This document shows positions 5,841 to 58,300 of a stretch of 64,000 nt of DNA, one piece after another. A model generated the notes under the pieces. It ran no database searches. It was not told the origin of the DNA and saw only the letters and a list, made by a program, of their open reading frames with translations. Within the stretch, counting starts at the first letter, position 1. Each line of letters starts with the position of its first letter. The stretch comes from Corbicula japonica (Eukaryota; Mollusca; Bivalvia; Venerida; Cyrenidae): contig JAZAYU010000012.1 in assembly GCA_038501625.1 (NCBI GenBank), forward strand, positions 806,001 to 870,000, read 5' to 3'. A program made the position numbers and the translations under genes.

Positions 5841-8800
5841 GTAAAGCATGCTTGTCATTTTTTTCTCAAGATTTAAAATAACAGTTAGATCTATAGTAAT
5901 ATATATTGAACAATGTACCTACCTAACATCTGTTTTATTGATATATTCATTCCGAAGTTTTAATGATGCTTTTGAAGGCATTCATTACTTCTGTACGTGG
6001 TTTTCGCGACATAGAATGAAAGAAAGCAACATGTTGTTTTGGTATCATTATTAAATAGAACTAACCTAGAGACATCATAAGTCATGAGCGTAGTGAATAG
6101 GGCAGCAGTGACAGCGACTGCCCCCCCCCCCACCCCTATTATTTCGACTAGCTGCCATTATATTTTAGTCTTGCTTCTTAAATATAATTTTTCGTGTCGC
6201 TAAAATAAAGAAACTTGAAGTGTAACAAAAAACTTCATTTCTACATGCACAGGAATTCACCACTCTCAACTATGCAGTTGCGGTTTTTGAAAAAAATATT
6301 ACCCATTTTTATACCCCAGTCCAAGACCGGTCATAATATAGGAACACATCTTATGGGAAAACCCATGGCAGTGAGTCAGGCTTGTGGCGTCCACAGCTAT
6401 GTCTGCTCAATAACTTAAACAGTTGTTGTACGATCTTTATGTTTTTTGGGAAGTTCACCTTGTCCGCTCTCTATCTCAAACATGGCTCTTCATGAAACTT
6501 GGGGAAAATGTCTGTTGGCATAATAACCGCTACCTTTTAAATTTGGACAGCATTTTCTTTAAAACAGCTTACATTGTCAAACTACCCACTGGGAATAAAC
6601 AACGTAACAAATACTTCGTTGCCACAGTGAAACAATGCAGGAATTCAACTAAATACTGCATAAAAGTAGAAAATTGCCACCTATCATTGAATTTCACTCA
6701 ATTCAGAGACGGAATGTACGTCAAAACTCGATGTTTTGATAGATTGGTATCATTATTAATTCAGCGTGCAAATAAAAACTGACCACCTTCCTTTCCTGAT
6801 CAGAATAAACGTTGACAGTACCATCACCGGAACTTTGCTGAACATTTTTCTTGTTTCACCAGCGGTAATGGTTCCCAGCCTCCTCCCATCCCCTCGTCCC
6901 CCACCGCCAACCCCCACCCCATGTTATAGATCAAAGCCTTGACAAACTTGACTTGTTCCCAAGCCACCTGAATGACATTTGTCTAACCTTTGCAGTGTTT
7001 TTTTTTTATGCCAGATATTTGGAGAAATTTGGCCCCATTCCCCCCCTCAAATAGTATATATTTTTACCCCATTCCAATAAAAAATTCCCCCTTTGCCGAA
7101 GTCTGTTATGGACCGTTTGATTTGTTCCGCTAATGTGTTTTAGCGTGATAGTGAAGATGATAAATCTTAATTTTTTTCTGATGCAAGAAAATTCAACTCT
7201 GGGAAGTATGAGGCAAGATTTACTTGGTTGGACTATAGTGTTAGCAAAGCAAACAGCAAAAGATCAGTGAATTCTTTGGGGTTTTTTTGTGTTTGACAGC
7301 TGCAGGTTTCTTCCAAATATTCTCCCTTTCCTTTATTCGTGTTGCATTTTCCCCCTCCAAAGGGCTGTGACCCTTTCCCCCAAAAGTGAAAAAGAAACAC
7401 TGCTTTGTAATCAACAGACAAGCCTCAGAATGAAATCAAGTCTCAAGACGTGTATCCCAAGGATTTTCCTAGGCCCTCTTCTATTTATCCTGTTCTGACA
7501 TAAACAATTTGCCTGACGAAGTTCAGTCCTATTACAAACTTGTGCAATGTTTGATGATGGTGGTAAACTGTGTAAAGACCCTTATGCTTAAGATTTTAAA
7601 ATTGTTCAACTTGATCTTGATAAATAAGTGGCTATGTATTTATATATTTACAAGTGTATGGTCATGTGTATTGGTTAAAACAATTCTTGCTTTATTTATG
7701 AAATGAAAGATAAACAGTAATATTAAAACATTGCCAGTTGAAAAAAAAACAACAAAAAGTGGTCTTTGTCTCTGAAGACTAATGTTCTTTATTCACAGCT
7801 GAATTTGTTCTTATAATCAGTCAGTGGGACAAATGAAATTGGGCTTTTACCAATGGTGGTCTTTGTTTACAGGTGGTCTTTAGCACATATTGGACTGTAT
7901 TGTTTTGTGGGTCTCTTTCAGGTATTATTGAGCAGTGATATATCTGGACAGCTATGGAATGTTTATGTTTGGGATATCAACACACATATAAGACTATTGT
8001 TTTGTGGGTCTCTTTCAGGTATTATTGAGCAGTGATATATCTGAACAACTATGGAATGCCTGTGTTTGGGATATCAACACACATATAAGACTATTGTTTT
8101 GTGGGTCTCTTTCAGGTATTATTGAGCAGTGATATATCTGAACAACTATGGAATGTCTATGTTTGGGATATCAACACACATATTAGACTGTATTGTTTTG
8201 TGGGTGTCTTTCAGGTATTGATCAGCAGTGATATATCTGGACAGCTATGGAATGCCTGTGTTTGGGATATCAACACTGGAGCAAGTCTCACGTCATACAA
8301 GGGAGAAAGCACCGGACATAGAGGGCTTTGTCTCCTTGGTAACCAGTACCTGCTGGGTGCGTCATGCTCAAAACCACTCATCCATGTCTGGGCACTGCAG
8401 AGGCGGGTATGCAACATGGTGTACTTGTTATAAAAACATGTGCTAAAATGTTGTTTTTATTTTACGCACTGTCACTGTATGGGTTCGATTTCCAGTGAGG
8501 ACTTATATTTTACAATTCACAGTAGCACTGTTTGAGCAGTGTGAAGGCCATAGAAAGTCTTCCTGTGCAAATTTATTAATGATTACACTGTTATCAGTAT
8601 AAAATCAGTAACCAGTGTCATATAATGGTAGTCACATTTATCAGGCAAACTTTCTTGGGGGTTGTACCGGCTAGCTCAATCGGTAGCCTGCTCAGAGTAA
8701 TGGCTAGGTGCTGTTGTTGTATGGGTTCGATTACCCATGAAGACTTGTATGCTTTTTTGCAACTGTTACATGCAATTGAAGTTCAGATTGGACAAGAGAT

Positions 8801-11800
8801 TGGAGACAGTCTGAAATCTCAAGCTTCTATTTAGACACTGGTATAAATTTCTACCAACCAGATGCTTCGGATTTGAGACTGGTCACCTGTCTTAGTTTTC
8901 TCAAATATTTTTCATAATTTCATTTATCACCTTACATTTGTTACTTCAGGATCAGCACCAGTTGAAGATGATATGTCCTGGTAGGGTTACAGCCCTTACC
9001 GTCACACCTTGTGCAACATACTGTGTTGCTGCTGTAGCGGAGAAAATACACATCTGGCAGGTAATGGTGGACTTATGACTGGTTAGAACAATCTAAGACC
9101 AGTATCTCGCAAATTCATGATTATAGGTGAATGGTGAGTGATGTTAGCATAAAATTATCTGTCTGTAAACCAGACATTATAAATCAGAAAGCAGTACTTT
9201 ATTGTGTTTGTTAACTTTGTACTAGTAAACATGTTGAAATATATATTTTGCCAAATTTTATTTTGGGGGAAGGTGAAGGGCCTGGTGAAAAGGTGAAAAA
9301 GGGAACAGAATGATGTATATGCTTCTGGCAACTAAATTGGGGGTTTTTCTGGTAAATTTGTATTAATAGGTTTCCAAAATGTCTGGTTAATTCATTCAAA
9401 TTATATAATGGAACTGTTATTTTATCAAACTCATTGCTTTATTTGTCTGAGGATCTTATGTGTTTTGTGGTTGGTGTTTCTGTTACTGTTGAATATTGCA
9501 TTGACCCTTTACACCATGGAAGAAACAGATCAGTCATCTAATCAGGATCTAAACTATAAGCTTCCTTGTCAAAAATAACTTAATAAATCAAAAATGAAAC
9601 ACAGTAGATCCTGATCAGATGGTACAGATGTGCTGGCTGATATGGATCTACATTGTTTGCCCATGGATAACAGCCATAATCCACGGAATATAGGGTTAAC
9701 TTGAAAATAATGCGTTTCCTGTAATATTTACTTACAATGTAGTCCAACAAAGTATGTTAACCCTTTCCGCCATATAAGCACATTTTTAAGCATGTGCAAA
9801 CAGTGCAGATCCTGATCAGACGGCACGGATATGATGGCTGATCTGGATCTACACTGGTTGCATTTTGGTCAGATAGATAACCTCATGAATCAAATTGTGA
9901 ACAGTGCAGATCCTGATCAGATGGCACAGATGTGTCAGCTGATCTGGATCTACACTGTTCGCCCACACTATAAAGGTGTGTCTATGGAGGAAAGGGATAA
10001 CAAGGTAAAATCCCGGCAGTACTTGTCAGAAGTTGGTATTACATATACATGTACATTTTTGGACATTGCAGGTATGTTCGGGGAACTTGATGGCAGTTTT
10101 AAGTCGACACTACCAGACAGTAAATGTTATCAAATTCACACACAATGGCAGCCATTTTGTTTCTGGCGGAGAAGACAATTTGGTAATTGTTTGGTCATTG
10201 GCAAGGTACCGGCTTTTCATTCTTCTAATTAATTTTAATTACTTGAAAGATAGTTGCGGTTATTTTCGGTTTTCACAAGATTATTTATTTTACATGTTCA
10301 CCGTTTGCATGAACAGTTGAAATTCACAAACTAGGTCATTGAACAGTGATCAATATAAATTGATTCACAAGTATTATTTAACTGGTTACTACATATATAT
10401 GCCTTTTTACGCATGTGTGACCAGTGCAGATCCAAATCAGCAGGCACATCTGTGCCATCTGAACAGGATCTGCACTAGTCACTTTTTGGTCAGAGATAAC
10501 CTAACAAATCAAAAAGTGAACAGTTTAGTGAACAATAAACACAGTTCAGTCAATGTTTTAACAGTTAATTTATTTTCTTCAAACTTAGCCAGAATTTTAG
10601 GGGCACACATTCTCGAAGACTGTTATTGAGTGAGATTAATCAAGAGTTGTTCCAATTGATAGGGTCATATCTTTAGCTCCCTTTCAAAAAAGTGGGGGTA
10701 TATTGCTTTTCACATGTCCTGTCAGTCAGTCCGTCCGACCGGATAAATTGGTACTTAGGTGGCTATAGGGACAATAGGTAACTGTACATTTTCTTTGATG
10801 TCATTCATTCCGTAATGGGTTTATGTGGCTATTTCTGTTTATGTGGCTAAAAAGAACAATGGGGAGAACAAAAGGATAGCCACTTAAGTACCGATTTGTC
10901 AGGACGTCCGTCCACCGGTCTGTAACCAACCTTTTTCCAATCAATAACTAGACAGTGATTTGGCATACAGTCCTCAGATTTGGTAGGGAGGTTTGTCATC
11001 ACATGTAGATGAACCCTTTTAATTTTGAGGTCAGAAGTTCAAAGGTCAAGGTCACATTGAACTTCAATAAAATACAGAACATTACTATCCAGTTGTCGTT
11101 TGTAGGGCATACATGTTTTAAAAAAAAAACTCTCTTGCTTATTTCTGTTGTGTTTTTTTTTTCAGTGGATAATATATTTCTCCACTTATCTTCACCTTAT
11201 TATGATAGGCATAAGACCTCAAAACAAGTTCAATTTTGGGCAAGATCTGACTTTTAATTCAAATCATATGGTCATCATTCGGTTAAAATTTGTGATTATT
11301 AATATTGAGTCTTTTCCAATAATTAATATTGACTGCTTTCTAACAAAAAACTTAACAAGTTAACTTAACAAAAAGTCACACCCAATCGCATATTGAAATA
11401 TTTGTAAAATAATAAATAATTTTCTGACAATTTTCTAACTTATTAACAAGGACTTCTTTAATATTTCAGTGTGCTGTCCTCTGTAAATAACCCAAGTCAG
11501 AAGGTGGAGCCCGTGAGGATCTGGTCAAGCCATTCCCTGCCTGTAACAGACGTACATGTTGGTCTTGGAGGGTACAGGTGCAGGGTGGTCTCTTCATCTC
11601 TTGATCAAACATGTAAGGTAAGTCTGGTCTCAACATCAACAAACAACACTTACTGCTGGGCACCAGAAAGCATGACTTTGTTGGCATATAGAGCCCAGCT
11701 CAAGATCAACAAACAACACTTACAGCTGGGCACCAGAAAGCATGACTGTTGGCATCTAGAGCCCAGCTCAAGATCAACAAACAACACTTACAGCTGGGCA

Positions 11801-14800
11801 CCAGAAAGCATGAGTTTGTTCGCATCTAGAGCCCAGCTCAAGATCAACAAACAACACTTACAGCTGGGCACCAGAAAGCATGACTTTGTTGGCATATAGA
11901 GCCGAGCTCAAGATCAACAAACAACACTTACAGCTGGGCGCCAGGAAGCATGACTTTGTTGGCATATACAGCCCAGCTCAAGATCAACAAACAACACTTA
12001 CAGCTGGGCGCCAGAAAGCATGACTTTGTTCACATCTAGAGCCCAGCTCAAGATCAACAAACAACACTTACTGCTGGGCACCAGAAAGCATGATTTTGTT
12101 CGCAACTAGAGCCCAGCTCAAGATCAACAAACAACGCTTACTGCTGGGCACCAGAAAGCATGACTTTGTTCGCAACTAGAGCCCAGCTCAAGATCAACAA
12201 ACAACACTTACTGCTGGGCGCCAGAAAGCATGACTTTGTTCACATATAGAGCCCAGCTCAAGATCAACAAACAACACTTACTGCTGCGCACCAGAAAGCA
12301 TGACATTGTTGGCATATAGAGCCCAGCTCAAGATCAACAAACAACACTTACTGCTGGGCACCAGAAAGCATGACTTTGTTGGCATATAGAGCCCAGCTCA
12401 AGATCAACAAACAACACTTACTGCTGGGCACCAGAAAGCATGACTTTGTTGGCATATAGAGCCCAGCTCAAGATCAACAAACAACACTTACTGCTGGGCA
12501 CCAGAAAGCATGACTTTGTTGGCATATAGAGCCCAGCTCAAGATCAACAAACAACACTTACAGCTGGGCACCAGAAAGCATGACTTTGTTGGCATATAGA
12601 GCCCAGCTCAAGATCAACAAACAACACTTACTGCTGGGCACCAGAAAGCATGACTTTGTTGGCATATAGAGCCCAGCTCAAGATCAACAAACAACACTTA
12701 CTGCTGGGCACCAGAAAGCATGACTTTGTTGGCATATAGAGCCCAGCTCAAGATCAACAAACAACACTTACTGCTGGGCACCAGAAAGCATGACTTTGTT
12801 CACATATAGAGCCCAGCTCAAGATCAACAAACAACACTTACTGCTGGGCACCAGAAAGCATGACTTTGTTCGCATCTAGAGCCCAGCTCAAGATCAACAA
12901 ACAACACTTACTGCTGGGCACCAGAAAGCATGACTTTGTTCACATCTAGAGCCCAGCTCAAGATTAACAAACAACACTTACTGCTGGGCACCAGAAAGCA
13001 TGACTTTGTTCGCATCTAGAGCCCAGCTCAAGATCAACAAACAACACTTACTGCTGGGCACCAGAAAGCATGACTTTGTTGGCATATAGAGCCCAGCTCA
13101 AGATCAACAAACATCACTTACTGCTGGGCACCAGAAAGCATGACTTTGTTGGCATATAGAGCCCAGCTCAAGATCAACAAACAACACTTACTGCTGGGCA
13201 CCAGAAAGCATGACTTTGTTGGCATATAGAGCCCAGCTCAAGATCAACAAACAACACTTACAGCTGGGCACCAGAAAGCATGACTTTGTTGGCATATAGA
13301 GCCCAGCTCAAGATCAACAAACAACACTTACAGCTGGGCACCAGAAAGCATGACTTTGTTGGCATATAGAGCCCAGCTCAAGATCAACAAACAACACTTA
13401 CAGCTGGGCACCAGAAAGCATGACTGTTGGCATATAGAGCCCAGCTCAAGATCAACAAACAACACTTACTGCTGGGCACCAGAAAGCATGACTTTGTTGG
13501 CATCTAGAGCCCAGCTCAAGATCAACTAACAACACTTACAGCTGGGCACCAGAAAGCATGACTTTGTTGGCATCTAGAGCCCAGCTCAAGATCAACAAAC
13601 AACACTTACAGCTGGGCACCAGAAAGCATGACTTTGTTGGCATCTAGAGCCCAGCTCAAGATCAACAAACAACACTTACTGCTGGGCACCAGAAAGCATG
13701 ACTTTGTTGGCATCTAGAGCCCAGCTCAAAATCAACAAACAACACTTACAGCTGGGCACCAGAAAGCATGACTTTGTTGGCATCTAGAGCCCAGCTCAAG
13801 ATCAACAAACAACACTTACTGCTGGGCACCAGAAAGCATGACTTTGTTGGCATATAGAGCCCAGCTCAAGATCAACAAACAACACTTACTGCTGGGCACC
13901 AGAAAGCATGACTTTGTTCGCATCTTGAGCCCAGCTCAAGATCAACAAACAACACTTACTGCTGGGCACCAGAAAGCATGACTTTGTTGGCATATAGAGC
14001 CCAGCTCAAGATCAACAAACATCACTTACTGCTGGGCACCAGAAAGCATGACTTTGTTGGCATATAGAGCCCAGCTCAAGATCAACAAACAACACTTACT
14101 GCTGGGCACCAGAAAGCATGACTTTGTTGGCATATAGAGCCCAGCTCAAGATCAACAAACAACACTTACAGCTGGGCACCAGAAAGCATGACTGTTGGCA
14201 TATAGAGCCCAGCTCAAGATCAACAAACAACACTTACTGCTGGGCACCAGAAAGCATGACTTTGTTGGCATCTAGAGCCCAGCTCAAGATCAACTAACAA
14301 CACTTACAGCTGGGCACCAGAAAGCATGACTTTGTTGGCATCTAGAGCCCAGCTCAAGATCAACAAACAACACTTACAGCTGGGCACCAGAAAGCATGAC
14401 TTTGTTGGCATCTAGAGCCCAGCTCAAGATCAACAAACAACACTTACTGCTGGGCACCAGAAAGCATGACTTTGTTGGCATCTAGAGCCCAGCTCAAGAT
14501 CAACAAACAACACTTACAGCTGGGCACCAGAAAGCATGACTTTGTTGGCATCTAGAGCCCAGCTCAAGATCAACAAACAACACTTACTGCTGGGCACCAG
14601 AAAGCATGACTTTGTTGGCATATAGAGCCCAGCTCAAGATCAACAAACAACACTTACTGCTGGGCACCAGAAAGCATGACTTTGTTGGCATATAGAGCCC
14701 AGCTCAAGATCAACAAACAACACTTACTGCTGGGCACCAGAAAGCATGACTTTGTTGGCATCTAGAGCCCAGCTCAAGATCAACAAACAACACTTACTGC

Positions 14801-17800
14801 TGGGCACCAGAAAGCATGACTTTGTTGGCATATAGAGCCCAGCTCAAGATCGACAAACAACACTTACTGCGGAGAGCATGAATGATCATCTAGAACACCG
14901 TGATGTCCAATCACTCAGAATTAATTGAATTTTTTTTTTCAGAAAAGTCCAATACAGAGGTGTAGAAATTTTCTTGGACCCACTCGCCCTGCAGACATTT
15001 TAAATAAAATACTCTTTCTGTTGCAATTTTCGTTTTTCTATTCGTTCTATCTCTTTCTTACTATCTCGCTCATTCTCTCGCTTTTCATCATCACCCCTAC
15101 CTTGTGTAAAAAACGTTATCTTCATTTGTTTCGACATTTTGACATATAGCGGGAAAATACGTGCACTTGCAGCCTCGTTCTGATTTGGGAAACCCAATGA
15201 GGATAAAAGTAAATCGCTGCTTTTACCTTTACATTAAAAACGTTCCGAATACATTGGAAATCGACCGAAATACTGGAAATCGAATTGTATTTTATAAACA
15301 AAGTGAAAATATTTCATTTTTCTGAAGAAAACACACATGCTTTGCTGAAAAATTTACTCGCCCGGTCGGTCGAGTGTTTCGGCCGCTTCACTTGACCCAA
15401 CGGATCATTTACAAGCCATGGCGAGCGGTAGAGTGGAATTCTACACCTCTGCAATATGACTGGTTTTTAACCTACACGATATACGATATATACATTTTTT
15501 ATCGCATGTGTGAACTTTGTATATCCACATCAACTGGCACATCCATGCCATCTGATCGAGATCTACACTGTTTGCTAATTTGTCAGAAATAAGGAATGAA
15601 TAAAAAAGCCGACAGTGTAGATCCTGATCATATGGAATGGATGTATGAGCTATCCATGCCAGCTGATCAGGATCTGGATCTAGACAGTTTTCCCATGGAT
15701 AAGTGCCATATCTCACGGAGTAAACAGTTAAGTAACCCTTATGATATATTTAATTTGAAAAACAAACCCATGTATTTTAGATATGGGATATGGTTTCTGG
15801 AGAATTGTTACAAACCATCATTTTCCCAGCCAGTGTGATGTCGGTTGCCATGGATACGGCAGAATATCGTCTGTTTGCAGGAGCCAGCAATGGAGATATA
15901 CACTGTGTCAATATGTATGGCCAGGTAAGATGCTTGTCTTAATAAATACATGGATGTGGCGGGGATTCTAAAATTTACAGCATGCTGGACATGTCAGAAT
16001 TTCAGAGAAAAAAAGTATAATTAACCGGTTACTCCATATATACACTTTTTTACGCATGTACGGCCAGTGTAGATCAGATCTGTGCTATCTGATCAGGATC
16101 TGCACTGTTTGCAATTTGGTCAGAGATAACCTAACGTATAAAAAAGCAAACATTTTAGATTCTGATCAGACAGCACAGATGTGCCAGCTGATCTGGATCT
16201 AATCTGTTTGCCCTCGCAATTGAGGTGTATCCATAGAGGAAAGGGTTTAAATGCGAATTTTAATGAAAGAGATGATGGTGTATTGCATCAAAGATGCCGA
16301 ACTCCGTAAACTAAAAAATTGTGCTCATCGCTTTAAAATTGGTCGTTACCAGTGTTTAAAAGAATTTAAATCTGTCTACACCTTGGAAATCAATTGATGG
16401 ATTGGATTGATATTTGATGGTTTTCATTTTGCTATGGAAAACAGTTGGGTTCATTTTGGTATGGAAAACAGTTGGGTTCTTTTAAGTGTGTGAAGCCCCA
16501 AAAGCTAGCTGAACAATGAGGCTGTTGAAAGTGATCTCTTGATGCCATCACTTCAGATGCTAATACATGTACTTTCAATCGTATTAAAATCATCTCCTGA
16601 AAACCGCTGCTATCAGGATCTGACGACGAGTAACTTAAACAAGCTTTTAATTAACCCTTTGAACTAATCAGATTGTCACAGAAATCGCAAAAATTAAAAT
16701 AAAATTAGTATTTTAAACCATGGAAAGAGTTGACAGCCTGCGTAAGACATATTTTACTGGAGATATATGTGTTTATGTAGTATTGCATCATTCTAATGTA
16801 ATGATATCTTCAGATCATTCTGTGAACGTTATAAATTATGCTTCTTGTGTTGACAATTTCTAAAAATAGTAATTGGTGAAAACCGCAATAGCTTATGCAT
16901 GGTGTCTGCGGGCTGTCATCAGATCTAACAGATAGTTAGATCTGACTTTAGTGAGATTGATGTACTTGTATAGTCATCTTGTTTTATTGCAATAACATCA
17001 ATATCATGTTCACCATGCAAATACCATTCAAACAGTATTTTTCTTCAATTTATTTGCAGCCAGTTAGAACAGAGCGTCACATAGATACCACAGATCAGCC
17101 AGGTGTTGCCTGCTTTAAGGGACATAGGTTAGCTTGTGTGCAGTATTTAATTATTTCACAATGATTTTAACACTGATCTTTACTTCATATATATGGGTTT
17201 TGTCACATGTGCGAACAGTGTAGTTTTAGATCAGCCAACACATTGTACCATCTGTTCATGATATACTCTGTTCGCTTCTTGGCCAGAAATAACCTAGTTC
17301 GCTTCTTGGCCAGAAATAACCTAGTTCGCTTCTTGGCCAGAAATAACCTAAAGAATAAAAAAACAAACAGTGTATATCCTGATCAGACTGAAAAAATGTG
17401 CTTGCTGATCTGGTTGTACACCGTTCACCAATGCCATAAAAGTCACCTATGGAGTAAGGAGTTAAAGCTTGAAAACTTATTTTCAGTTTTTAATTTTTGA
17501 AATTATATGGCAGAGATGTTAACGCTTTCCTTCATAGATGGCATGTGCAAACAGTTTTGATCCAGGTCAATGCTGTCTGACCAGGATCTGCACTGTTTGC
17601 TTAGGTTATTTCATACCAGAAGGTGAACAGTGCACTGCAGATCCAGACCGTTATCGGTAACCATCAAAGGTGCGAACAAAGGCGCAAAAATGTCTCGCCA
17701 ATTAGGACGATATGCTATTTAATTTAGTAATTAAATATAGATAACAAATTAAAGCGGATGAAAATATTTTGTTAGCTCACCTGTCACGAAGTGACAAGGT

Positions 17801-22327: not shown

Positions 22328-22392
22328 CAGTAAATATATGTCTTTGGTATATTTTGTTAAAGTCAGATATGCCAGTATAACAAAACTTGGGT

Positions 22393-26043: not shown

Positions 26044-26049
26044 CATTGC

Positions 26050-35483: not shown

Positions 35484-35533
<50 letters not shown>
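35484..35533. repeat. Interstitial telomeric tract 1
   Basis: About 50 bp of CCCTAA repeats, the complement of TTAGGG, with two extra A (CCCTAAA) variants. It follows GAGTTATGGACCTTTTTA in the TATGCC-type repeat. Confidence 0.9.
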
Positions 35534-35658: not shown

Positions 35659-35659
35659 C

Positions 35660-35700
<41 letters not shown>
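35659..35700. repeat. Interstitial telomeric tract 2
   Basis: About 42 bp of CCCTAA repeats with one CCCTAAA variant, 175 bp after tract 1 and after the same GAGTTATGG-CCTTTTTA lead-in. It sits at the switch from TATGCC-type to AGCTCACC-type sequence. Confidence 0.9.
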
Positions 35701-35702
35701 GG

Positions 35703-39352: not shown

Positions 39353-39394
39353 CAAAGACTTCTACAATCAATAAATAACCATCGATAACTTAAT

Positions 39395-43300: not shown

Positions 43301-46300
43301 TACAAAACAAATTGTCCCTATAATATTAAAAAGACATAATTCTAAAACTTTGTATGATAAATTTGTGCAATTTTGTTTTTCATCTGTTGAAAAGCTCTCA
43401 GCTAAGGTACTCCTCGTTTGGCTAACAAATGGGGCACGTCACGGGAAAAGGTACCTTCGGTCAATTTAAGTGATATTTTGATTTTACTAAATTTAGAAAG
43501 AACTTAAAATTATTAATCAATTTCTTATAACAAAAATGTGATTTTATTACACATTTTAACAATAAAATGGTATTTTTTACCGCTAAATGCATAAAAAATA
43601 ATGTCGTCTGCTCAAATTTATGACGTCATTTCAAAGATTGACGTCAACTGTCCGAAGGTACCTTTTCCCGTGACGCGCCCCAAATAAGATAGTCCAAACA
43701 GAGCATGTTATATTTTGAAGGATTTCCATTAGTTCTTTTCCTTTTTTTTCTTCCAAAATGTTGTATAATTGGTATACAAAATGTATTGAAAGATTATATT
43801 TTATGTTTGTTGAAATTTTCAGAGACACTGATCAGTCACAATGGTGGTCATGATTCTGATGATGGTGCTGAGGCCTTTCAGATGGAGCTGTCAGAACACA
43901 ATGATGGAAGTGGAGCAAACTCTAGCAGTCCTGCCACCTCAGCTACAGCCAAACACTGGGCCTGGTTTTATGTCATATCAGCATCCATTATGGCCTCACT
44001 GGGTGGTGTCCTCTTTGGATATGATATGGGTAAGTGCTGACTGGGTCTCACTGGGTGGTGTCCTCTTTGGATATGATATGGGTAAGTGCTGACTGGGCCT
44101 CACTGGGTGGTGTCCTCTTTGGATTTGATATGGGTAAGTGCTGACTGGGCCTCACTGGGTAGTGTCCTCTTTGGATTTGATATGGGTAAGTGCTGACTGG
44201 GCCTCACTGGGTGGTGTCCTCTTTGGATAAGATATGGGTAAGTACTGACTGGGCCTCACTGGGTGGTGTCCCCTTTGGATAAGATATAGGTAAGTGTTGC
44301 CTGTGCCTCACATGGTAGTGTCCTCTTTGGATATGATATGGGTAAGTGCTGACTGGGCCTCACTGGGTGGTGTCCTCTTTGGATTTGATATGGGTAAGTG
44401 CTGACTGGGCCTCACTGGGTGGTGTCCTCTTTGGATATGATATGGGTAAGTGCTGACTGGGCCTCACTGGGTAGTGTCCTCTTTGGATATGATATGGGTA
44501 AGTGCTGACTGGGCCTCACTGGGTGGTGTCCTCTTTGGATTTGATATGGGTAAGTGCTGACTGGGTCTCACTGGGTAGTGTCCTCTTTGGATTTGATATG
44601 GGTAAGTGCTGACTGGGCCTCACTGGGTGGTGTCCTCTTTGGATATGATATGGGTAAGTGCTGACTGGGCCTCACTGGGTGGTGTCCTCTTTGGATATGA
44701 TATGGGTAAGTGCTGACTGGGCCTCACTGGGTAGTGTCCTCTTTGGATATGATATGGGTAAGTGCTGACTGGGCCTCACTGGGTAGTGTCCTCTTTGGAT
44801 TTGATATAGGTAAGTGCTGACTGGGCCTCACTGGATGGGGTCCTCTTTCGATATGATATAGGTAAGTGCTGACTGGGCCTCACTGGGTGGTGGATATGGG
44901 TAAGTGCTGACTGGGCCTCACTGGGTGGTGTCCTCTTTGGATTTTATATAGGTAAGTGCTGACTGGGTCTCACTGGGTGGTGTCCTCTTTGGATATGATA
45001 TGGGTAAGTGCTGACTGGGCCTCACTGGGTGGTGGATATGGGTAAGTGCTGACTGGGCCTCACTGGGTGGTGTCCTCTTTCGATATGATATGGGTAAGTG
45101 CTGACTGGGCCTCACTGGGTGGTGTCCTCTTTGGATATGATATGGGTAAATGCTGACTGGGCCTCACTGGGTGGTGTCCTCTTTGGATTTGATATGGGTA
45201 AGAGCTGACTGGGCCTCACTGGGTGCGGTCCTCTTTGGGAATGGTGTTGTAAGGGCCTCACTGGATGTTACCGTCTTGGGAATGGTGTTGTATGGGCCTC
45301 ACTGGATGTTACCGTCTTGGAATTGTGTTGTATGGGCCTCTATATGTTACCCACTTGATATTGGTGTTGTATGGGCCTCACTAGATATTACCGTCTTGGG
45401 AATGGTGTTGTATGAGCCTCACTTGATGTTACCGTCTTGAGAATGGTGCTGAATGGGCCTCACTCTGTTGTGTTTTTTTTTTGAGAATCGTGTTGAATGC
45501 CCCCATGTATTTGGCATTGACTCTAGCAAGAGGAGACTATATATATTTAGTAACTTGCAAGAGTGTGAGGTAAAGATGGAAAAATCTGTAACCAAGGGTG
45601 AACTGTTTTGCCGTGTTCCCACATCAACAATTCAACCGAGGTGACAGATTTTTCTATCTTAGTTGAATGTCATATGCAAGATACTTTTTCTTGCATATCT
45701 ATGTTGTTCATAATATTTGTGTACAAGTATACCGTCTAAAAATTTGTTTTTAAGTGCTAAAACATGAAAGTTAACATACCTAATTTTCTAAATGAGGTCA
45801 CTTTCTTTAATACATGACATCAAATACCTTATGGGGCGCGCCGCGGGAAAAAGTGCCTTCGGTCATATTTTGTGACATTTTAGTTGTTACTGTATTTAAA
45901 AAGAACTTACAACTTTTTTTAAAATTTCTCATAACTAACAAGTGCTTTTCTTACACATTTTGGCAATAAAATGATTTTTTAACGCAAAATGCATAATTAT
46001 TAATGTCGTCTGCTCAATTTTATGACGTCATTTCAAAGATTGACGTCAACTGTCCGAAGGTACCTTTTCCCGTGACGCGCCCCTTATGATGTGACGTCAC
46101 TCATTTAAGATGTGTGACTCATTCTACATGGGGGTTGTAGGATCTAAATTTCCTACACAGGTGAAAAAACCAGATGACCTGATCTGGTAAGCAAGAAAAA
46201 ATGGTTCTGGATATTTGGACTAAAAACTATATTTCAAATAAAAGGGTAATCCCGATTAGATGCATGGATGTGATAGCTGGATCTACATTGTTGGTCCATG

Positions 46301-49300
46301 CAATAAAATGGTGTATATAAGAAGTATAAGGGTTAAAGGAGCACTTAGAATGATGTATAATAACCATAAAATCTGATCAAAAATAGCCATGTTTTGGCAA
46401 TGATGTTGATTGGCTAATGCTTTATGACATGGATGTTTCAGGTATCATATCTGGAGCGATACTTCAGCTTCGAGATGTCTTCTGTCTTTCCTGCCTCGAC
46501 CAGGAGCTTGTCATCAGCGCAATGTTGATGGGGGCAGTCCTTGGATCTTTGCTTGGCGGTATGTCAGAAACTTTATTGCCATCATAACGTTAGCCGTATA
46601 CTTAATGAAATGAGGCACGCCACGGGAAATGGTACCTTCGGTCATTTTTTGTGTCATTTTTGTTGTTATTATATTTGGAAAGAACTTTAAAATTTCTATT
46701 ATTTTCTCATAACAAAACAGTGATTTTGTTACACATTTTGACAATAAAATTGTATTTTTACCGCGAATTGTATAATAATTAATGTCGTCTGCTCAACTTT
46801 ATGATGTCGTTTCAAGAATCGACGTCAACTACCCGAAGGTACCTTTTCCTGTGGCGTGCCTCAAATATAGCTATTGAGGATGTGTTATCAATGCTTTTAA
46901 ATTTTTTAGATTTTACTTATTTCTGAGCGGCTTATATTCAGACAATGACGGTATTTCTGAGCAAGATATTACTGTAGATCCAGATCAGATGACATGGGTG
47001 TGCTGGCTGATCTAGATCTACACTATTCACCATTATTAAATCATATTGGTTTGACGTTTCTCATTGGATTAAACGTGATCACATGATATGCGATAAATTT
47101 CGATATTGACTCATAGGCGGAGTCTAAATCAAATATTGACCTGGGCGAAAAATTTCATGCGCGAATCGGCTTAGGTACGAAATACGTCACAGCGCTGTTA
47201 CGTCACAATAAATACAACCGTTGTAAACAAATGGCGTCGACTGTTGGAGACAGAAAAGTAAAACTGCTGCTAAAAGCACTGGTGGAAGACATAACTGGCT
47301 TTATTTATGATATCTGGGTGTTGCAATGTGAAATTATATCAGGCAATGCTTCATGGTAAAGTAATGTTGCCAGTTGCAGCAACGAAACGGACAAAACATA
47401 CTGTTCCCTGATTACCATTTCGTAACCTTAATTAACATAAAACACAATATCCAAATTCAATTTCAACATTTAATTTGGAAAATCGCTAGGATAGCACTTG
47501 GGTATACCGAATGAACTCTATTAATTATAACATTTGCAATGAAATCATAGATTTCTCAATACATATATTTCCTTACATATATTGGCAACACATATCGTAC
47601 AAATTACTTAAACAAATGCATGTTATGACACCGCAAATCATTAACCAGTTCATGAACAACTGAATTCGTTTGCTATTAGCTGAACAGATTTTATACATAT
47701 AAAAAATCAGTGTGTACACTTCGGTAACCCAAAGCTGAATGCCAACCCTGCGATATACAGCACGAATCTCTCGTGCGAAAACTGCCATCTAACGGTTACT
47801 TCATTACAAACAAGGGAAATTAATTTTCTTCTTATTCGTACCTCAAACGCAGAAAATTATATTTCCCTGATTACCATTTCGTAACCTTAATTAACATAAA
47901 ACACAATATCCAAATTCAATTTCAACATTTAATTTGGAAAATCGCTAGGATAGCACTTGGGTATACCGAATGAAATATTAAAGAACGGGGACTTCCGTAA
48001 AATCAACTTCGAATACCGATGATATATTATTATAAGATAGTTTGTCAAACTTGAATTTGCAAAATAAACCTGTCCTTATTAAATTCCAATCTGTTCAGCT
48101 ATACAAAATCTAAGGACACATACATAATAAAAGACTCAATGACAATAATACAGATATTATTTCTTGTAAAGAATCTTTCATATATCAGTCTTTTGCTAAC
48201 TCACAAAGTCAGCGTCCATGACATTTAACCATTCTGTCGTTTACACCATAATTATCAGCACATGCAAAAGATCTTAGCGAGTGTAAACAATATTTTTAAA
48301 ATCACTGATATGTAGAACACGTGCTCTTAATTACTCTTCATATAAGTTTGTGTATGACATCTGTTTGTTACACATCCCCACAGAATGCCCGTTTTTCGGT
48401 TTTACACAAATAACACAATTTGCCCAGTTCAAAGTTTTCAGTATTTCCCACAGGAAATAAATAGTTTCTAGTTCTCGCAATAGTAATTCATATATCTATT
48501 AGTTTCAGTAATGCTTTCTATGAATATACTCATGTTTCATCAAACTCATACTCAGAACTGTGCTTAGATCCAGCAAAAGCTATAATGACGCACAAATAAT
48601 ACGCCGAATTTTCAAATCGAAATCCACATAAATTTGATTATAACTATTTAATAGAATTTCTGCTGTCACAGGCTCCTTTTTAACAACTTGTTTAGATAAA
48701 ATTCTTTTCGTGCTTTTAAAACATTACAGACTAATTTTTTTTTTTAATCAATTGGGGACTTTAAATCGTAAATTTCCTGAAACATTTAATAGCATAAAAT
48801 GCTGATATAACTGATGCTGGACTAGATGACTTTGAAATATAAAAAACGAATTTATAGCTAATGTAAACGCCTTAGCAGGCAAAATATCCCTTCTCCCTAA
48901 ACCACTGTTCAAAGCCCACTTATTACATTACATAAAACGTTTCCCGTATTTCCAACTTAATGAATGCTCTTGAATTCTGTCTGTAACAGGTCCGGGAGAA
49001 GTTCCACCTTGCCCGCATAGACTTCCGGTATAGCTTCAATCTCAGATTTATGAGCCTGAAAAAATAAACAGTTCTGTTTACAAATAATTAAAGAATATGG
49101 TATGCTATGTATTTCATTGTTAAACTAACTATACTCATCAAAATATTACAATATGAAAGATGCATAATTTACACGTGAATAAATTAAGGGTGTAATGTTA
49201 CAAATCTTAATTACAGTGTATAATACATGTTTTGCTCATAACCCTCTATAAATAACAGACAATATCGCCCCATTTGTAGCGATGCCGCTTTCTGTATTTA

Positions 49301-52300
49301 AAATACTACTTAATTTGTAATTCCAGGCAATGCCGCCTTACTTTAGCGATGCCGCTCGCAATATTCAAAATACTACATATATTATCAAATCCAGGCGATG
49401 CCGCCTTACTTAACGATGCCGCTCTATAAAGTTATAATACTATATAAATAATCAAATCCATGCAATGTCGCCTTACTTTAGCGATGCTGCTTGCAATAGT
49501 TAAAATACTACATAAATTATCAATTCCAGGCGATGCCGCCTCACTTAAGCGATGCCGCTCGCAGTAGTTAAAATACTACATATTATCAAATCCAGGCGAT
49601 GCCGCCTTACTTTAGCGATGCCGCTCTCAATAGTTAAAATACTACATAAATAAATGACCAAATCCAGGCGATGCCGCCTCACTTTAGCGATGCCGCTCTT
49701 TATACTTAAAATACTACATATATTATCAAATCCAGGCGATGCCGCCTTACTTTAGCGATGCCGCTCTCAGTTAAAATACTACTTTAATTATCAAATCCAG
49801 GCGATGTCGCCTTAGTAGTTACACCACTACCTTCAAAATTCTCAAATACAGGCGATGCCGCCTTGTATCACTGATGCTTCTGCAATATAAAATAAACATG
49901 TAAAATGTTTACACTTTGTAAAATATATATAAATATCACACGCGCAAACATCAGGCGCATATACAATTCATCTCAAACAAATAAAAAGCTGCTTATCAGT
50001 TAAAGGGAGGTAATCCAATGAAAACTTCGAAAGTTACTATGTCACCCTTGAAACCAATATTACACGGCTAACTTTCTAAACAAAGATAATATTTCCGAAA
50101 CAAAAGACCAAATTCATAATGCCATGATTCAGCAAATTCATCAATTACATTAAAAGACAGGCTCCAGTAAATAGAGCATATTTTGGCAATTTTGCATTGT
50201 GTTCCGATGCAAACCAATAATCTGATGTTGACCAAACCTATTTTGAACTACTGAAAAAGTTCAAATACCCCAGTCATCGTATCCGACTATGCGTGATAAA
50301 TAATCGGCCCTCTCATTTACAGACTTGACACCCCCTCTAATTCCTCAATAATATAATTTCTAGTGCAAACTCTTAACTCTTGTAATAACCTAAAGTTCTC
50401 TTTTCATGGAACCTTCTGTAAATCAACGCAACACTGTGATTGTATGAAAACCACTTCACCTATATAGCCAAAACTCTACTAAAAGATTTCAACACATGCA
50501 ATACCGCTACTAATTCTCGCCGGATGACTTGGCTGCCTCAACAGCATTCCACTGATCGTGTGATACTCCATTGATAGTGTTAGCCTCGTAACCTGCATAA
50601 TCATTGCTAATGGCGTCAGAAAATACCATTTATCTCTAAATACATATATGTAATGTTCACAAGCCTCAAGTGAGACTGACAGATTTTTAACTGATATATT
50701 TTTCCTGCGAAATGGGCATATAGGATCACAATGTAATGCTGTCAAAATATCGAAACTATCGTATTTAGAGGCAGGTGACCAATTACCAAAGACATAGATA
50801 TTATCTGTCTAACTTTGCCAGCGAACTTGCGAAACGGCACTCGTATGTGCGTCTTAATAAAATAATTTTTAGCAGATCTTGTCCAAAGCTTATATAGCCT
50901 ACGTTCAGAAATCAAAATAATTCCTTGTAAGGGCTTAATAAGCCCTTTTCAATATCTGGTACAGACCCACTCAGACTTTGGCGCATCCAATCTTGAATTC
51001 AACAAGTCAGCCTTAATAGATGTGTAGCTAATTGTTCAAGACAAAGAAATTATGTGCGCAGCCTAAACCATCATCAAGAAACATAACACGTTCACATCGT
51101 CCAACCATTTTGCTTTAAGAGGCATAATTACCTTTAAAAAAAAACTGAAGCTTACTAGACTGACCAAAAGTTAATACCAGATATGTGTTAAACTGCATTT
51201 CCCTTCTTGTCATTCCAAGAAGACACTAAATCTTGGTGTGGGGTTGGTAAATTTCAATGAAATGATACACGCTCGCCAAATCAACTTGGTCATAAAAATC
51301 AATTTTTAAATAAGGTATTACTATCATATTTAACATATTGTTTCCGATTATGCTTTTTAACAACGCGTAAATTTTAAAATGAGTTTTCTTTCTTGAATAT
51401 TGCACTGAAAAGTCAAACGATTTACTACATAATAAGGTCTGAACATTTTTCTATTCAATTTCTGTCATCAATCTTGAATACTTCCGCTAATACAATCGGG
51501 TTTTAACAAAGCTGATTTATTATTGTTAAAAGATTCTGGTTGGCTGATAAAAAGCGCAAGTTGATATCCATTTTTGAATAATGTCTTTTACACAAAACTT
51601 TAGCTCCTATTGCTTTCCATAAATGAATATTATGTCTACATCGCATTGTAATTTGTGTTTCTGCCCCCGTTTGTATTCATAGTAATCATGTGTTAACATA
51701 CAAAGATCAAAATTATACTTATCTTTAATAAACGATCTCATTATCAATTCCCTTGTACGTCACAAGGCTCATTTTTGCTCTACCGATTACTCTCTCGAAC
51801 GAAGGGAAGTTCTTCCGGAAGTGGGTGTTCTCTCCACATGCAAAACATGGTCCAGGGGCGAAGCCACTGAACTGAACAAAAGTGACTCCTGGAGTTAAGA
51901 CAGTCTTGCTGTAGCTGTATGAGCCTCTCAAAAGCTTGCCTCGACCTGTCTGGGTTGAAAGCCAGAACCCCAAGGTTAACAACCAAACAAACCAGCAATA
52001 GAAATATGTAATGCGTAGGTCGAACCTCTGTCACGAAAACTACTTCGCCTCCGCTTAAGCACCCGGTTTTCGCCTTATTGATCCTCGACTCATCTTCCGA
52101 GTCACTCGCAAATGATTGGTTTCGTACTGACGGACGGTTTTTCAGACGCCGCCAGAAAAGTCTAACAATTCTAAGCAGTTCCTTTTCTTCAGAAGGTCTA
52201 GTGCCTCAGTGAAAATTCCTTCCAATAGTCCAGTTTCCTTTTCTCAATAATCCAAACAACCGTGTTAAAATGTCACCGATACTGAAGTTAAAATCATACT

Positions 52301-55300
52301 GAATATCATTTTCCTCGTTTCTAACCTCAAAAAACACAGTCCAAATCCTTCACAAAAAGATTGAACCTCAGCAGTTGTCGACTTATTTTAAAAGATAAGT
52401 CATTCAAAGTCAAATAGATTTCACGTGGTCGTTAAAATTTTCCGCTACGAGTATAATAGAGTTAACACTAAAAAATCAGTGTGTACACTTCGGTAACCCA
52501 AAGCTGAATGCCAACCCTGCGATATACAGCACGAATCTCTCGTGCGAAAACTGCCATCTAACGGTTACTTCATTACAAACAAGGGAAATTAATTTTCTTC
52601 TTATTCGTACCTCAAACGCAGAAAATTATATTATCGGGCACGGTATGTGACAAGTTTGGAAATTAGAATAATTTTAAAATTAAGATTTAATAATAAAGCA
52701 ATTGTTGCATTTCAGTTTCGGTCAATATGGTGATTTATCGACCTGACGAAGCAATATCGCCTCGGTCAATAACGATTTTTTAGGTCAATATCACAGCATA
52801 TTTCCCAGCTAATAAGTAAATAATTGTACAATAGATAATAGCCATATCCATTGGAGTATAGGAATAACTCTTTGCATTTAGATTTATTAGCTTATTTCTA
52901 ACCAAGAAATTACCAGTGAAGATCCAGATCAGATGGCTCTGTTGTGTTCTGTCATACATGGATAAAACATACATTGATATATTGAGTAAAGGGTTATTCT
53001 AAATAATATGTTTAATATATATTCTTTTCTGTCTCACAAATATCAGATTGAGATTACAGCGGAAGTCTTTCTGTGATTAAATCCTGCATCAAGATAAACA
53101 ATTTAATATAAGTTTGGACTGTATCAAAAATTTGGACCTAATGGACTTGGTGTCAATTTATCATGTTTGTTAATTCAGTTTGTAAGCTGTATTTCAAGTT
53201 CTTTTAAGTTTTCATTAAGTACAAAGAAGGGCATTGATTTTGGATCTTAATTTTATTGCATTTTCTAAATAGACACGTTTAACTTTAAAAATAAGTGTAT
53301 CCATTTTCAATCAAATTTATTTAAGATATTATCATACAGATGTATTTAATTTGTTTGCAAGAAAAGAACTTATGACAAGGGTTATTCATTAACTTTTCAC
53401 TCTAGATGTGCAGGTGTTATTGCCTGTTGGAACAGTGTAGATCCAGATCAGCCAGCACATCTGTACTATCTAATCTTTACTTTTCACTTCTTAGAAATAA
53501 ACGAGGCACGCCATGGGAAAAGGAACCTTCGGTCATATTTTGTGACATTTTAGTTGTTACTATATTGAGAATGAACTTACAACTATCTTTTAGTTTTTCA
53601 TAACTAAAAAGTGATTAGGTTACACATTTTGACAATAGAATGGTATTTTTGCCGCGAATGCATAATAAATATTATTACACCTCACGTGATTAGTTTACTA
53701 TATAGCGTAATGTGACGTCACAGGGAGATAATCGCTACTGTCACATATGCAACAGCATCATGTCACCCTCGCGTGGATCTAAAAATAAATATCTTGGAAA
53801 TCCGATTACAAATTAACTTCTACGCATGCGTTATTGACCAAGGGAGATAATCGCATTTTGATCATTATTTGTAGCCGCTTATTGAGCATTACTGATTTTG
53901 GACTTCCGGCGCTTGATTTTGTTCCCAAACGAAATTTGGTCATAGCCAAGATCTCTAAAAAAACAAATGTTCGGTGTAATAAAATAAATATCACATCCCA
54001 TTGGGGGAAACAGTACGAAATGTTAACCCTTGAGAAGGTAATGTCAACCTCGGCTAACGCCTCGGTTGACATTACTTCTCCCGGGTTAACATTTCGTACT
54101 GTTTCCCCCAATGGGATGTGATATTTATATAATGTCGTCTGCTCAACTTTATGACGTCATTTCAAGGATTGACGTCAATTGCCCGAAGGTACCTTTTCCC
54201 ATGGCGTGCCTCAAATAAACAAACTAATTAAAATAGTGAAGAGTGTAGATCCAGATCCAGATCTACACTGTTTACCGATGGATAACAGGCATATCCCATG
54301 GATTCTTGCATACCAGATCAGGTCATCCGGTGATTTCACCCGTGTAGGAAATTTCGATCCTACACCCCCCCGTGTAGAATGAGTCACGTGAGTGACGTCA
54401 TATATTCAATTTATTGACGTCATTTATAAAAAAGGTTAGCGTTAATGTCAATATTTCAGCATAAGGAAAATAAAAAAGTTTGTATACATACATAGAAATG
54501 TTATAGATAATAAAAGGTATGCAAGAAAAAGTATCTTGCATGAGACATTCGGTAAAGATAGAAAAATCTGTCACCTCGGGTGAACTGTTTTGGCGGGAAC
54601 TCGGCAGAGCCTCGTTCCCGCAAAACAGTTAACCCTCGGTGACAGATTTTTCCATCTTCACCTCACACTCATGCATGATACTTATAGTAAAGGGTTAAAA
54701 AAATATCAGGGTAAGATTTCCCACACACTTTCAAATTTTCAGATGTTAGATCAGTAAAATGAACTTGTTAGGACAGCAACAGGACCGATCATTTTTGACC
54801 TACAGAATCATTTTATTGCTCGTTGTGGTGTTTCTTACAGGTTTCCTCATAGATCACTGTGGTCGTAGATTGACAATCATTGCAAACTCTGTGGTGTTTC
54901 TTACAGGTTTCCTCATAGATCACTGTGGTCGTAGATCGACAATCATCACAAACTCTGTGGTGTTTCTTACAGGTTTCCTCATAGATCACTGTGGTCGTAG
55001 ATTGACAATCATTGCAAACTCTGTGGTTTTTCTTACCGGTTTCCTCATAGATCACTGTGGTCGTAGATTGACAATCATTGCAAACTCTGTGGTGTTTCTT
55101 ACAGGTTTCCTCATAGATCACTGTGGTCGTAGATTGACAATCATGGCAAACTCTGTGGTGTTTCTTACAGGTTTCATCATAGATCACTGTGGTCGTAGAT
55201 TGACAATCATTGCAAACTCTGTGGTGTTTCTTAATATCAGGGTAAGATTTCCCACACACTTTCAAATTTTCAGATGTTAGATCAGTAAAATGAACTTGTT

Positions 55301-58300
55301 AGGACAGCAACAGGACCGATCATTTTTGACCTACAGAATCATTTTATTGCTCGTTGTGGTGTTTCTTACAGGTTTCCTCATAGATCACTGTGGTCGTAGA
55401 TTGACAATTATTGCAAACTCTGTGGTGTTTCTTACAGGTTTCCTCATAGATCACTGTGGTCGTAGATTGACAATCATCACAAACTCTGTGGTGTTTCTTA
55501 CAGGTTTCCTCATAGATCACTGTGGTCGTAGATTGACAATCATTGCAAACTCTGTGGTTTTTCTTACCGGTTTCCTCATAGATCACTGTGGTCGTAGATT
55601 GACAATCATTGCAAACTCTGTGGTGTTTCTTACAGGTTTCCTCATAGATCACTGTGGTCGTAGATTGACAATCATGGCAAACTCTGTGGTGTTTCTTACA
55701 GGTTTCATCATAGATCACTGTGGTCGTAGATTGACAATCATTGCAAACTCTGTGGTGTTTCTTACAGGTTTCCTCATAGATCACTGTGGTCGTAGATTGA
55801 CAATCATTACAAACTCTGTGGTGTTTCTTAAAGGTTTCCTGATAGATCACTGTGGTCCTAGATTGACAATCATTGCAAACTCTATTGTTTCTTCCAGGTT
55901 TCCTCATAGATCACTGTGGTCGTAGATTGACAATCATTGCAAACTCTGTGGTGTTTCTCATCGGAGCGCTCATTCTGGGATTTGCACCAAACTTTGCAGT
56001 ACTGGTAAGATATTAGTTTATTATTTCTCTGATATATAGAGGAATATTTGTTTCTTTCAGCAAATATTGATTTTATTTCATGAGTGAACACCAGAAACTG
56101 TTATTTTAATTAGTTGCCATTCTTGGTGTTAACAAGTGAAATTTTTTAAAATCAATATTTCATGTGAAAAATCATATCAAAACTAATAATTAAATAATTA
56201 TTTTATGTTTTCTTGTCAAACTAATTGAGACATTGGAAATTGGGTAATAAGTACATGTAGTTCCACAAAAAGCAGTAAAAAAATGATATTCCAAAGTTTA
56301 AAAACAGCAAAAGTACAAATTTAACTGAGAATATACTTCACTAGGAAACATAAAATGAAATGTGTTTACTTGGTCTTAACAGACACATGTTTATCCAGCT
56401 TTTCTTTGTCCTTGGTCCATTTCTTCAGGTCAACAAATACATGTATTGATCTCATCAAGTTTATTATTGTATTACTGGGAATTCATTAACCCTTTCCTTC
56501 ATATATATGTGCATATTTACACATGTGCGACCAGTGTAGATCCAGATCAGTCAACACATCCATGCTGTCTGATCTGGATCTGCACTGGTCATGTTTTGGT
56601 CAGAAATAACCTAATGAATCAAAAAGCGAACAGGTTAGATCCTAATCAGACGGCACAGATGTGCCGGCTGATCTGGTTCTGAACTGTTCGCCCTCGCAAT
56701 ACAGGTGTATCTATGGAGGAAAGGATTAATAAATGTATTTGTTGTTTACTAATTGTCATGGAATTAGTGGGGATATTGATCCAGAAATTCAAACCACTGA
56801 AAAATAGAGAATTGAACCTTAATGTATTTTTGAAAATTAAAAACCATGAATTTAAGAACCCGGGAAAATGCTGTTAAACGATTTACTTCATAAAGGGTTT
56901 TTTGTGACCATGAATCTCTTAATCTACACTGGATCTTCACACTTAATAGTTGCTTCTTGGTCATAAATAACCTAATGGAGCTAAAAGCTAAGTGTAGATT
57001 TAGATTAGATGGCAAAAATGTGCTGGCTGACCTGTGCCCAAGGTTATAAAACTGAGCATGGAAACCAGTCTCAAATCTCAAGCATCTGATTGGCTGAAAT
57101 GGCAACTGGTCGCCATTTCAGCCAATCAGATGCTTGAGATTTGAGACTGGTTTCCAATCTCAGCTTTATAACCTTCAGGCCTGGGTCTGGATTGCAATTG
57201 TTCAATTAAGGAGGAGCATTCCATAGTGTTAGGTGTTAAATAGAACAGATAATACTGAAATCCAAAAATTGTATAACTCACAAATATAAGTGGATCTACA
57301 CTCTACAGTATATTACAAAGTAAACATATGTAAAATGTGAGTTGATATTTCAGGTTGTGGGCAGGTTGCTGGTTGATCCTACATAATATGTGTGTTGATA
57401 TTTCAGGTTGTGGGCAGGTTGCTGGTTGATCCTACATAATATGTGTGTTGATATTTCAGGTTGTGGGCAGGTTGCTGGTTGATCCTACATTATATGTGTG
57501 TTGATATTTCAGGTTGTGGGCAGGTTGCTGGTTGGGTTCGCTGTGTCAGTCTCCGCCACCGGAGAATGTATCTACATCTCAGAAATAGCTCCAGCGGTAT
57601 ATAACTCTTTGTTTCCCTCCATTCTTGGTCAACTACATCACTGAATCAAGTCAAGCCTATGCTTGCCAATTGTGAAACATTATCATAAATATGTTGTGCG
57701 GAATATTAAAATCATTTACCCCTAGGATGGCCACAACTAGCTCTTTCGCTCACATACCTTATGAAAAATGAGGATAAATCATTTTAAGATACATTACAAC
57801 ATCCAAGAGTTGTAGAGTAGTAACTAGCGACTGGTATTTGATTTATTTGCAAATAGAAATACTTTGTAAAAGCAATCAAAGAACAAAATAGCGTCAAAAT
57901 AACAAGTTCTTAAGAAAAACATTCATCATTGCTCACTGGGAAAAAGTTCTGGCTGGAACAATTTACGTGTTTAAAATATAAAACTATGTTTTCCGTGAAG
58001 CTTCATTATTATTACACAGCACAACATTCCCCGATTTCTGTAAAGTTTTTCTGTCTTATTAAGAAAACAATTATTGGTCATACTCACTTTTTGTAAACAA
58101 AACAACACTTTCACTCATTCTCGGAAGTGGCTTTGTTCATTTTGCTATGTTCTCTTTTTTGGTTGTGGAGCGAATGTTTACCAGTTGGGTATAATGTGCC
58201 TTAATAGAATAATACAGTCTGCACGAATATGTGATTTTCCATGTTTGCAAGAAAATTTGTCTACACAAAATTTACACTTTTGTCCATATATACACTAATG

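Follow-up and report, generated by a model that had tools for sequence, protein, structure and literature searches.

Tandem arrays across exon-intron boundaries of two neighbouring genes in the bivalve Corbicula japonica resemble the mirages of amphioxus

How do tandem arrays come to lie exactly across exon-intron boundaries, several times over in two adjacent genes? The question is raised by a 64,000-nucleotide stretch of the genome of the bivalve Corbicula japonica (assembly GCA_038501625.1, 1.07 Gb in 1630 contigs; contig 12, JAZAYU010000012.1, positions 806,001-870,000), referred to below as the window, in which five arrays stand at or beside splice sites. The genes concerned encode WDR18 (matched to human WDR18 with E=1e-81 in a PDB search) and a sugar transporter of the SLC2A type (Pfam Sugar_tr, 6e-34). 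Four of the five arrays are probably minisatellites of the type termed mirages in amphioxus (lancelet), which arose by local tandem duplication, were tolerated, and then expanded.

Tandem Repeats Finder (TRF), used with periods of at least 20 bp, recovered all five arrays at the places given in a preliminary description of this DNA; merging the TRF rows by hand left 14 arrays in the window. From sequence and homology, 28 of the 29 splice sites claimed earlier could be located, the remaining one presumably being the donor of SLC2A exon 1, which was not found. The WDR18 protein is 78% identical to its Mercenaria orthologue and 70% identical to that of Mactra, and aligns with both without gaps across the junction of exons 5 and 6 and from exon 2 on to the variable C-terminus; four extra residues at the N-terminus of the Mercenaria protein fall within exon 1.

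In four of the arrays, as had been claimed, the splice site and adjacent coding bases lie inside the repeated unit (Table 1). The 97-bp unit at the acceptor of WDR18 exon 2 joins about 35 bp from the end of intron 1 to about 60 bp from the start of the exon; the 53-bp unit at the acceptor of SLC2A exon 5 comprises 31 bp of intron and the first 22 bp of the exon; and a 66-bp unit is repeated at the acceptor of SLC2A exon 4. At the donor of SLC2A exon 2, the 52-bp unit takes in the last 38 bp of the exon and the first 14 bp of the intron, including GGTAAGT, and about 24 such units (43992-45238) precede a degenerate 41-bp tail. The exception is the 70-bp array, which begins 12 bp past the last base of WDR18 exon 5 and has no splice site in its unit. 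The exon-joined copy stands last in the acceptor arrays and first in the donor arrays, again as described before; this order is no evidence for any mechanism, since it is topologically forced, a tandem copy of any segment that crosses a junction having to keep the exon-joined copy in that place.

Within 264 kb (the window plus 100 kb on each side, hereafter the neighbourhood), all five units were located at a single place each. The units are thus unrelated and locally private, which bears out the earlier view that they do not form one transposon family; a single transposon or dispersed repeat family is rejected on this ground for the neighbourhood, and none of the ten junction arrays recognized there is among its 23 dispersed arrays (see below). 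Introners and reverse-splicing insertions copy a whole intron, with unit edges exactly at the splice sites. These too are rejected: the units hold only part of an intron together with some exon, and the distance from junction to unit edge varies, with about 3 to 75 bp of exon included, so that nothing cuts at the splice site itself. Two arrays retain hints of their history. The spare copies of WDR18 exon 2 have common differences that are absent from the genuine exon and therefore probably multiplied after diverging from it. At SLC2A exon 4, the intron flank ahead of the array and the exon sequence beyond its final unit share the 12-bp sequence TGTGGTGTTTCT at a spacing of one period, as would be expected if short direct repeats had mediated the first duplication; here, a second-order duplication of 531 bp (two copies, 99% identical) has also taken in the intron flank and part of the 66-bp array.

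The preliminary description knew of no named system that behaves in this way, a statement that does not hold. Mirages, i.e. minisatellite-like repeats across exon-intron boundaries, are known in amphioxus Adh3 and the globin genes BflGb6 and BflGb9, with PGBD5 and troponin C as further cases (PMC3902484). In the excerpts of two reports used here, their units measure 10-72 bp in Adh3 and 150-160 bp in BflGb6, and both normal splicing and instability of length are described (PMC3087553, PMC3902484); one of these excerpts considers mirages possibly general in cephalochordates (PMC3087553). As in the amphioxus arrays so described, the unit spans the boundary in four of the five window arrays, either the 5' or the 3' boundary is affected (in the window at three acceptors and one donor, and upstream of it at four donors), the units are unrelated and of differing lengths (97, 52, 66, and 53 bp), and many copies, not all, keep their splice signals: AG in 12 of 14 spare acceptors of SLC2A exon 4 and GT in every one of the 19 spare donor units that measure exactly 52 bp. 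At the level of DNA, the window's four spanning arrays are classed here as mirages; the 70-bp unit has no splice site, so this array is not filed with them and is treated only as an intronic neighbour. The clam arrays differ from those of amphioxus in their bivalve host, in reaching up to about 24 junction-spanning units, in the presence of several arrays per gene, and in that arrays with one donor motif are over-represented across the genome. No report of mirage-type arrays in a mollusc was found in the open-licence literature of PubMed Central, and as far as this search shows they are new for that phylum.

Arrays span splice sites in the window more often than random placement predicts. Placing one unit of each array at random, 0.61 of the 14 arrays would be expected to span a splice site, and four do (P=0.0024); within gene bodies the figures are 4 of 10 arrays and 0.76 expected (P=0.0042), and when arrays that lie no more than 12 bp from a splice site are added, five are seen against 0.77 expected (P=0.0006). 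The claim had been made before any of these tests was devised. The neighbourhood contains 61 arrays with periods of 20-250 and TRF scores of at least 100; the window accounts for 14 of these and the flanks for 47. Twelve of the latter, selected by their units, were inspected for adjoining exons, and the counts of junction arrays that follow are therefore lower bounds. Four arrays upstream of the window, all on the minus strand, span the donors of exons that were judged coding by an open frame between acceptor and donor. A laminin-EGF exon (Pfam, 7.7e-9) is found among these upstream donor arrays; for the four array exons, Pfam returned no accepted family (none at all for the 82-bp and 44-bp arrays, sub-cut-off matches only for the 83-bp and 25-bp arrays), and a PDB search with the exon of the 82-bp array gave no convincing match. 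Together with a downstream array that starts just inside an intron, the neighbourhood holds at least eight spanning and at least two abutting arrays among its 61. Seven further junction candidates were inspected and not accepted (71x4.5, 50x9.9, 48x2, 141x3.4, 43x5.4, 24x11, and 27x12).

According to BLAST within the neighbourhood, the 61 arrays divide into 38 private ones and 23 members of dispersed families, a split made after the arrays had been seen; all ten junction arrays are private. At least 8 of the 38 private arrays span a splice site against 1.05 expected if the number of splice sites is extrapolated from the window to 116 (P=1.4e-5), and the excess persists if 300 sites are assumed (P=0.007). 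For all 61 arrays, the expectation with 116 sites is 2.3 (P=0.003). The suggestion that a local duplication process acts, or is tolerated, at splice junctions has thus stood up in both the window and the neighbourhood.

Genome-wide tests were based on words, not on gene annotation, with the reversed word as control. The donor word AGGTAAGT, required in three copies at gaps of 42-72 bases, gave 734 matches against 269 for its reverse. Long arrays inflate such counts, so distinct arrays were counted instead: among the matches listed, contigs C1-C13 contain 18 arrays against 6 in the control, or 8 if a group of three adjacent places on C5 is split up. As a single word, AGGTAAGT is rarer than its reverse (33,684 vs 58,521 occurrences), which makes the excess of arrays per occurrence 5.2-fold (P=0.0001), or 3.9-fold (P=0.0007) with 8 control arrays. 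A genome-wide excess is supported for this one donor motif only. Triplets of AGGTATGT (1310 vs 572 matches) were not used, the matches listed being swamped by one array on C3, with neither base counts nor listed control matches to set beside them. An array of AGGTATGT units at G000:C3:2368265-2368622, in which LSDKEAQLNMEVNNNQ precedes the donor, has by eye a coding-like exon end and is a candidate junction array in its own right.

Fifteen distant arrays with coding-like or splice-like units were picked by eye, so that no rate can be drawn from them: 8 are of donor type and 7 of acceptor type, the control list having supplied one of the acceptor-type arrays. In nine, a convincing open exon is continuous with the terminal copy at a canonical site; among these, the L033 unit extends as far as the acceptor, but its exon part has no match in the exon. 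The other six (L032, L035, L037, L040, L043, and L044) were ambiguous, the fetched piece of L037 not clearly reaching the first unit. Homology supports four of the nine junction exons: one resembles SLC13 (E=2e-6), one a TMC-like protein (2.7e-4), one the "Exocytosis Protein" of PDB entry 2pft (0.0035 over all 35 residues), which we take to be Exo70/EXOC7, and one Endomembrane protein 70 (Pfam EMP70, 1.4e-13), presumably of the TM9SF family. Pfam gave no match for 9 of 10 short exons, and the PDB search found nothing for the TM9SF-like exon and nothing convincing for that of L042. L036 (G000:C16:5670100-5670700), which came up only with the control motif, has the look of a junction array of acceptor type and comes with an open exon some 70 codons long.

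Several results weigh against a general link between arrays and junctions. The acceptor word TTTTCAGG gave 34 arrays against 8 on contigs C1-C67 (288 vs 119 matches). Its base counts are unequal (82,307 single words vs 35,011 reversed), so that the apparent acceptor excess is no longer clear (ratio 1.8, P=0.08; 1.03 at the level of matches). If 300 splice sites are assumed for all 61 neighbourhood arrays, 5.9 spanning arrays are expected and no excess is left (P=0.25). A search of the 61 units for splice motifs found 4 donor and 6 acceptor cases at p<0.05 where about 3 of each would be expected, too weak a test to be telling. Nine sugar-transporter loci with PF00083 matches (L001-L009), viewed by eye, have no array at the ends of the matches, and within the SLC2A gene itself exons 7 to 12, placed roughly by eye, have no junction array. 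A direct repeat like the 12-bp one at SLC2A exon 4 is clear at only one of the four spanning arrays. On balance, the effect at junctions is moderately supported.

The over-representation could reflect a hotspot of array birth, longer persistence of arrays anchored at a junction, or both. A possible, if tentative, account is that duplications are born anywhere in introns and that those at junctions stay recognizable for longer, purifying selection on the functional unit keeping their copies similar. The genuine unit is indeed constrained coding sequence, the exon parts of the 14 spare SLC2A exon 4 copies differ from it at only 0 to 3 of 44 sites, and the SLC2A exon 2 array decays into its 41-bp tail far from the exon. 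Against this account, fresh-looking private arrays occur at places not known to be junctions (e.g., 55 bp x28 at -32437, with 98% matches), and identity in the window does not cleanly separate junction arrays (84 to 98%) from the others (82 to 100%).

More doubtful is a mutational hotspot tied to the junction, at which DNA structures linked to transcription or splicing (R-loops, pyrimidine tracts, or nucleosome edges) would provoke duplications at exon edges. Such a hotspot would agree with the excess of private arrays at junctions and of AGGTAAGT arrays in the genome; it is at odds with the unclear result for acceptors and with the scatter of unit edges, which reveals no fixed place of cutting. 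It is rather unlikely that splice junctions are the preferred birthplaces of minisatellites in this bivalve lineage, with a sizeable share of sites carrying decoys and introns growing by duplication at their edges.

Chance combined with post hoc choice, by which a minisatellite-rich genome would offer a few exon-edge cases that were noticed for their apparent meaning, is quite improbable. Room for it is left by tests that were devised once the observation was known, by a splice-site number that was extrapolated beyond the window, and by a private/dispersed split that came late. Yet the excess persists in the neighbourhood outside the window and for a genome-wide motif, neither of which was used to form the claim, and for private arrays it survives the assumption of 300 sites.

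The spare splice sites themselves might be functional, retained as alternative sites that regulate or protect splicing. Their upkeep speaks for this: besides the AG and GT counts given above, GTAAG is kept in 18 of those 19 donor units. So does one WDR18 acceptor, the last spare one before genuine exon 2, whose use (exon start at 8116; 8116-8406) would add a stop-free, in-frame insert of 33 residues, the sole such case among 20. The remaining 19 spare acceptors lead to a premature stop (14 of 14 at SLC2A exon 4, 2 of 3 at WDR18 exon 2, and 3 of 3 at SLC2A exon 5), the 2-bp shortfall of the final unit putting all 14 at exon 4 out of frame, and the Mercenaria and Mactra proteins have no insert at the WDR18 junctions. 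In the donor array (28 mismatches in total), the motif differs at a rate of 1.5%, between that of the exon part (3.7%) and that of the rest of the intron part (0.6%). A function for the spare sites is thus very improbable; those that are retained may be either harmless or young. Reading through the donor of SLC2A exon 2 meets an immediate TGA, so that with the stops behind the spare acceptors a normal protein would need the outermost site. From these stops and the insert-free orthologs we infer that the outermost site is the one used in splicing.

An assembly artefact of collapsed or expanded repeats is barely credible: assemblers easily get the number of copies in such arrays wrong, and in the excerpt used here one amphioxus mirage was apparently misassembled in a genome draft (PMC3087553), whereas single-base differences between units, a contig of 12 Mb, and similar arrays at many places argue against it.

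Local tandem duplication with tolerance and later expansion would proceed as follows. A short segment astride a splice junction, measuring 52 to 97 bp in the window and 25 to 83 bp in the sequence next door, would be duplicated in tandem, after which the spliceosome would keep using whichever copy still adjoins the intact exon (in an acceptor array the last one, in a donor array the first). With that copy still in use, the spare ones would lie in the intron at little cost, probably near neutrality, and later turnover by slippage, unequal exchange, and second-order duplication may then have expanded the array.

Comparable cases in other genomes differ in their outcome. The title of a 1995 article by Turri reportedly names a minisatellite of IFI6 (6-16) with multiple splice donors. 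In the excerpt on human IFI6 used here, that minisatellite likewise supplies repeated donors at one exon end; unlike the situation proposed for the clam, two downstream units are reported to serve as donors, yielding three mRNAs, and a single gene is concerned (PMC4526556). Human segmental duplications contain minisatellites of variable copy number at exon-intron boundaries, with 27 intron modifications; as excerpted, these have units averaging 30 bp in four copies, lie in recent primate duplicates, and are associated with changed splicing and putative new introns, in all of which they differ from the clam arrays (PMC2812944). Intron gain by tandem genomic duplication also involves splice signals (PMC4974935; the Rogers model as cited in PMC3087553). 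In the excerpted form of this model, an exon segment with a proto-splice site becomes a new intron, whereas in the clam existing introns lengthen and no new one is in evidence.

That mirages recur in a bivalve suggests a phenomenon not confined to lancelets. Should the excess at junctions hold genome-wide, it would amount to a large natural experiment in which near-identical splice sites compete in a row and the outermost seemingly wins, and to a measurable route of intron growth. Decoy exon edges copied many times are also a practical warning for gene prediction.

Table 1. Exons and arrays discussed in the text (window coordinates; negative positions lie upstream of the window)
Feature	Position	Strand	Basis
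WDR18 exon 2, genuine	8215..8406	+	PDB WDR18, E=1e-81
97-bp array at WDR18 exon 2 acceptor, 3 spare copies then genuine	7898..8276	+	TRF, unit and ortholog alignment
WDR18 exon 5; donor GT at 11618-11619	11470..11617	+	Sequence/gene model
70-bp array in intron after WDR18 exon 5, 46.4 copies	11629..14870	+	TRF, sequence
SLC2A exon 2; donor GT at 44030	43823..44029	+	Pfam Sugar_tr
52-bp array at SLC2A exon 2 donor with degenerate 41-bp tail	43992..45464	+	TRF, unit alignment
Second-order duplication, 531 bp x2 (99%), intron flank and part of 66-bp array	54702..55764	+	TRF, sequence
66-bp array at SLC2A exon 4 acceptor, 14 spare copies then genuine	54824..55958	+	TRF, unit alignment
SLC2A exon 4, genuine	55898..56004	+	Sequence/gene model
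53-bp array at SLC2A exon 5 acceptor, 3 spare copies then genuine	57331..57534	+	TRF, unit alignment
SLC2A exon 5, genuine	57513..57596	+	Gene model
Upstream donor array, 82 bp x4	-88567	-	Open frame
Upstream donor array, 83 bp x7	-80798	-	Open frame
Upstream donor array, 44 bp x9.6, few exon bases in unit	-54429	-	Open frame
Upstream donor array, 25 bp x13	-51805	-	Open frame
Downstream 40-bp array, begins ~1 base into intron after amino-acid-transporter exon	109756		Pfam Aa_trans, 2.1e-10

Repeats of other kinds were seen along the way. In the long SLC2A intron that also bears a 68-bp array, a 164-bp stretch occurs twice in identical form about 4.8 kb apart (47700-47863 and 52469-52632), as does a 112-bp stretch (47404-47515 and 47863-47974), which suggests a recent insertion of a mobile element. 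Interstitial telomere-like runs of CCTAAC (35484-35533 and 35659-35700) are embedded in a complex of 145/175-bp repeats. A dispersed element of the type GATCCTGATCAGAC...CAGCTGATCTGGATC, present at 21459-21670, is found at 22 separate places in the neighbourhood. Farther away, 66-bp repeats at G000:C68:1903546-1943495 and C228:190917 resemble, by eye, in-frame coding tandem repeats.

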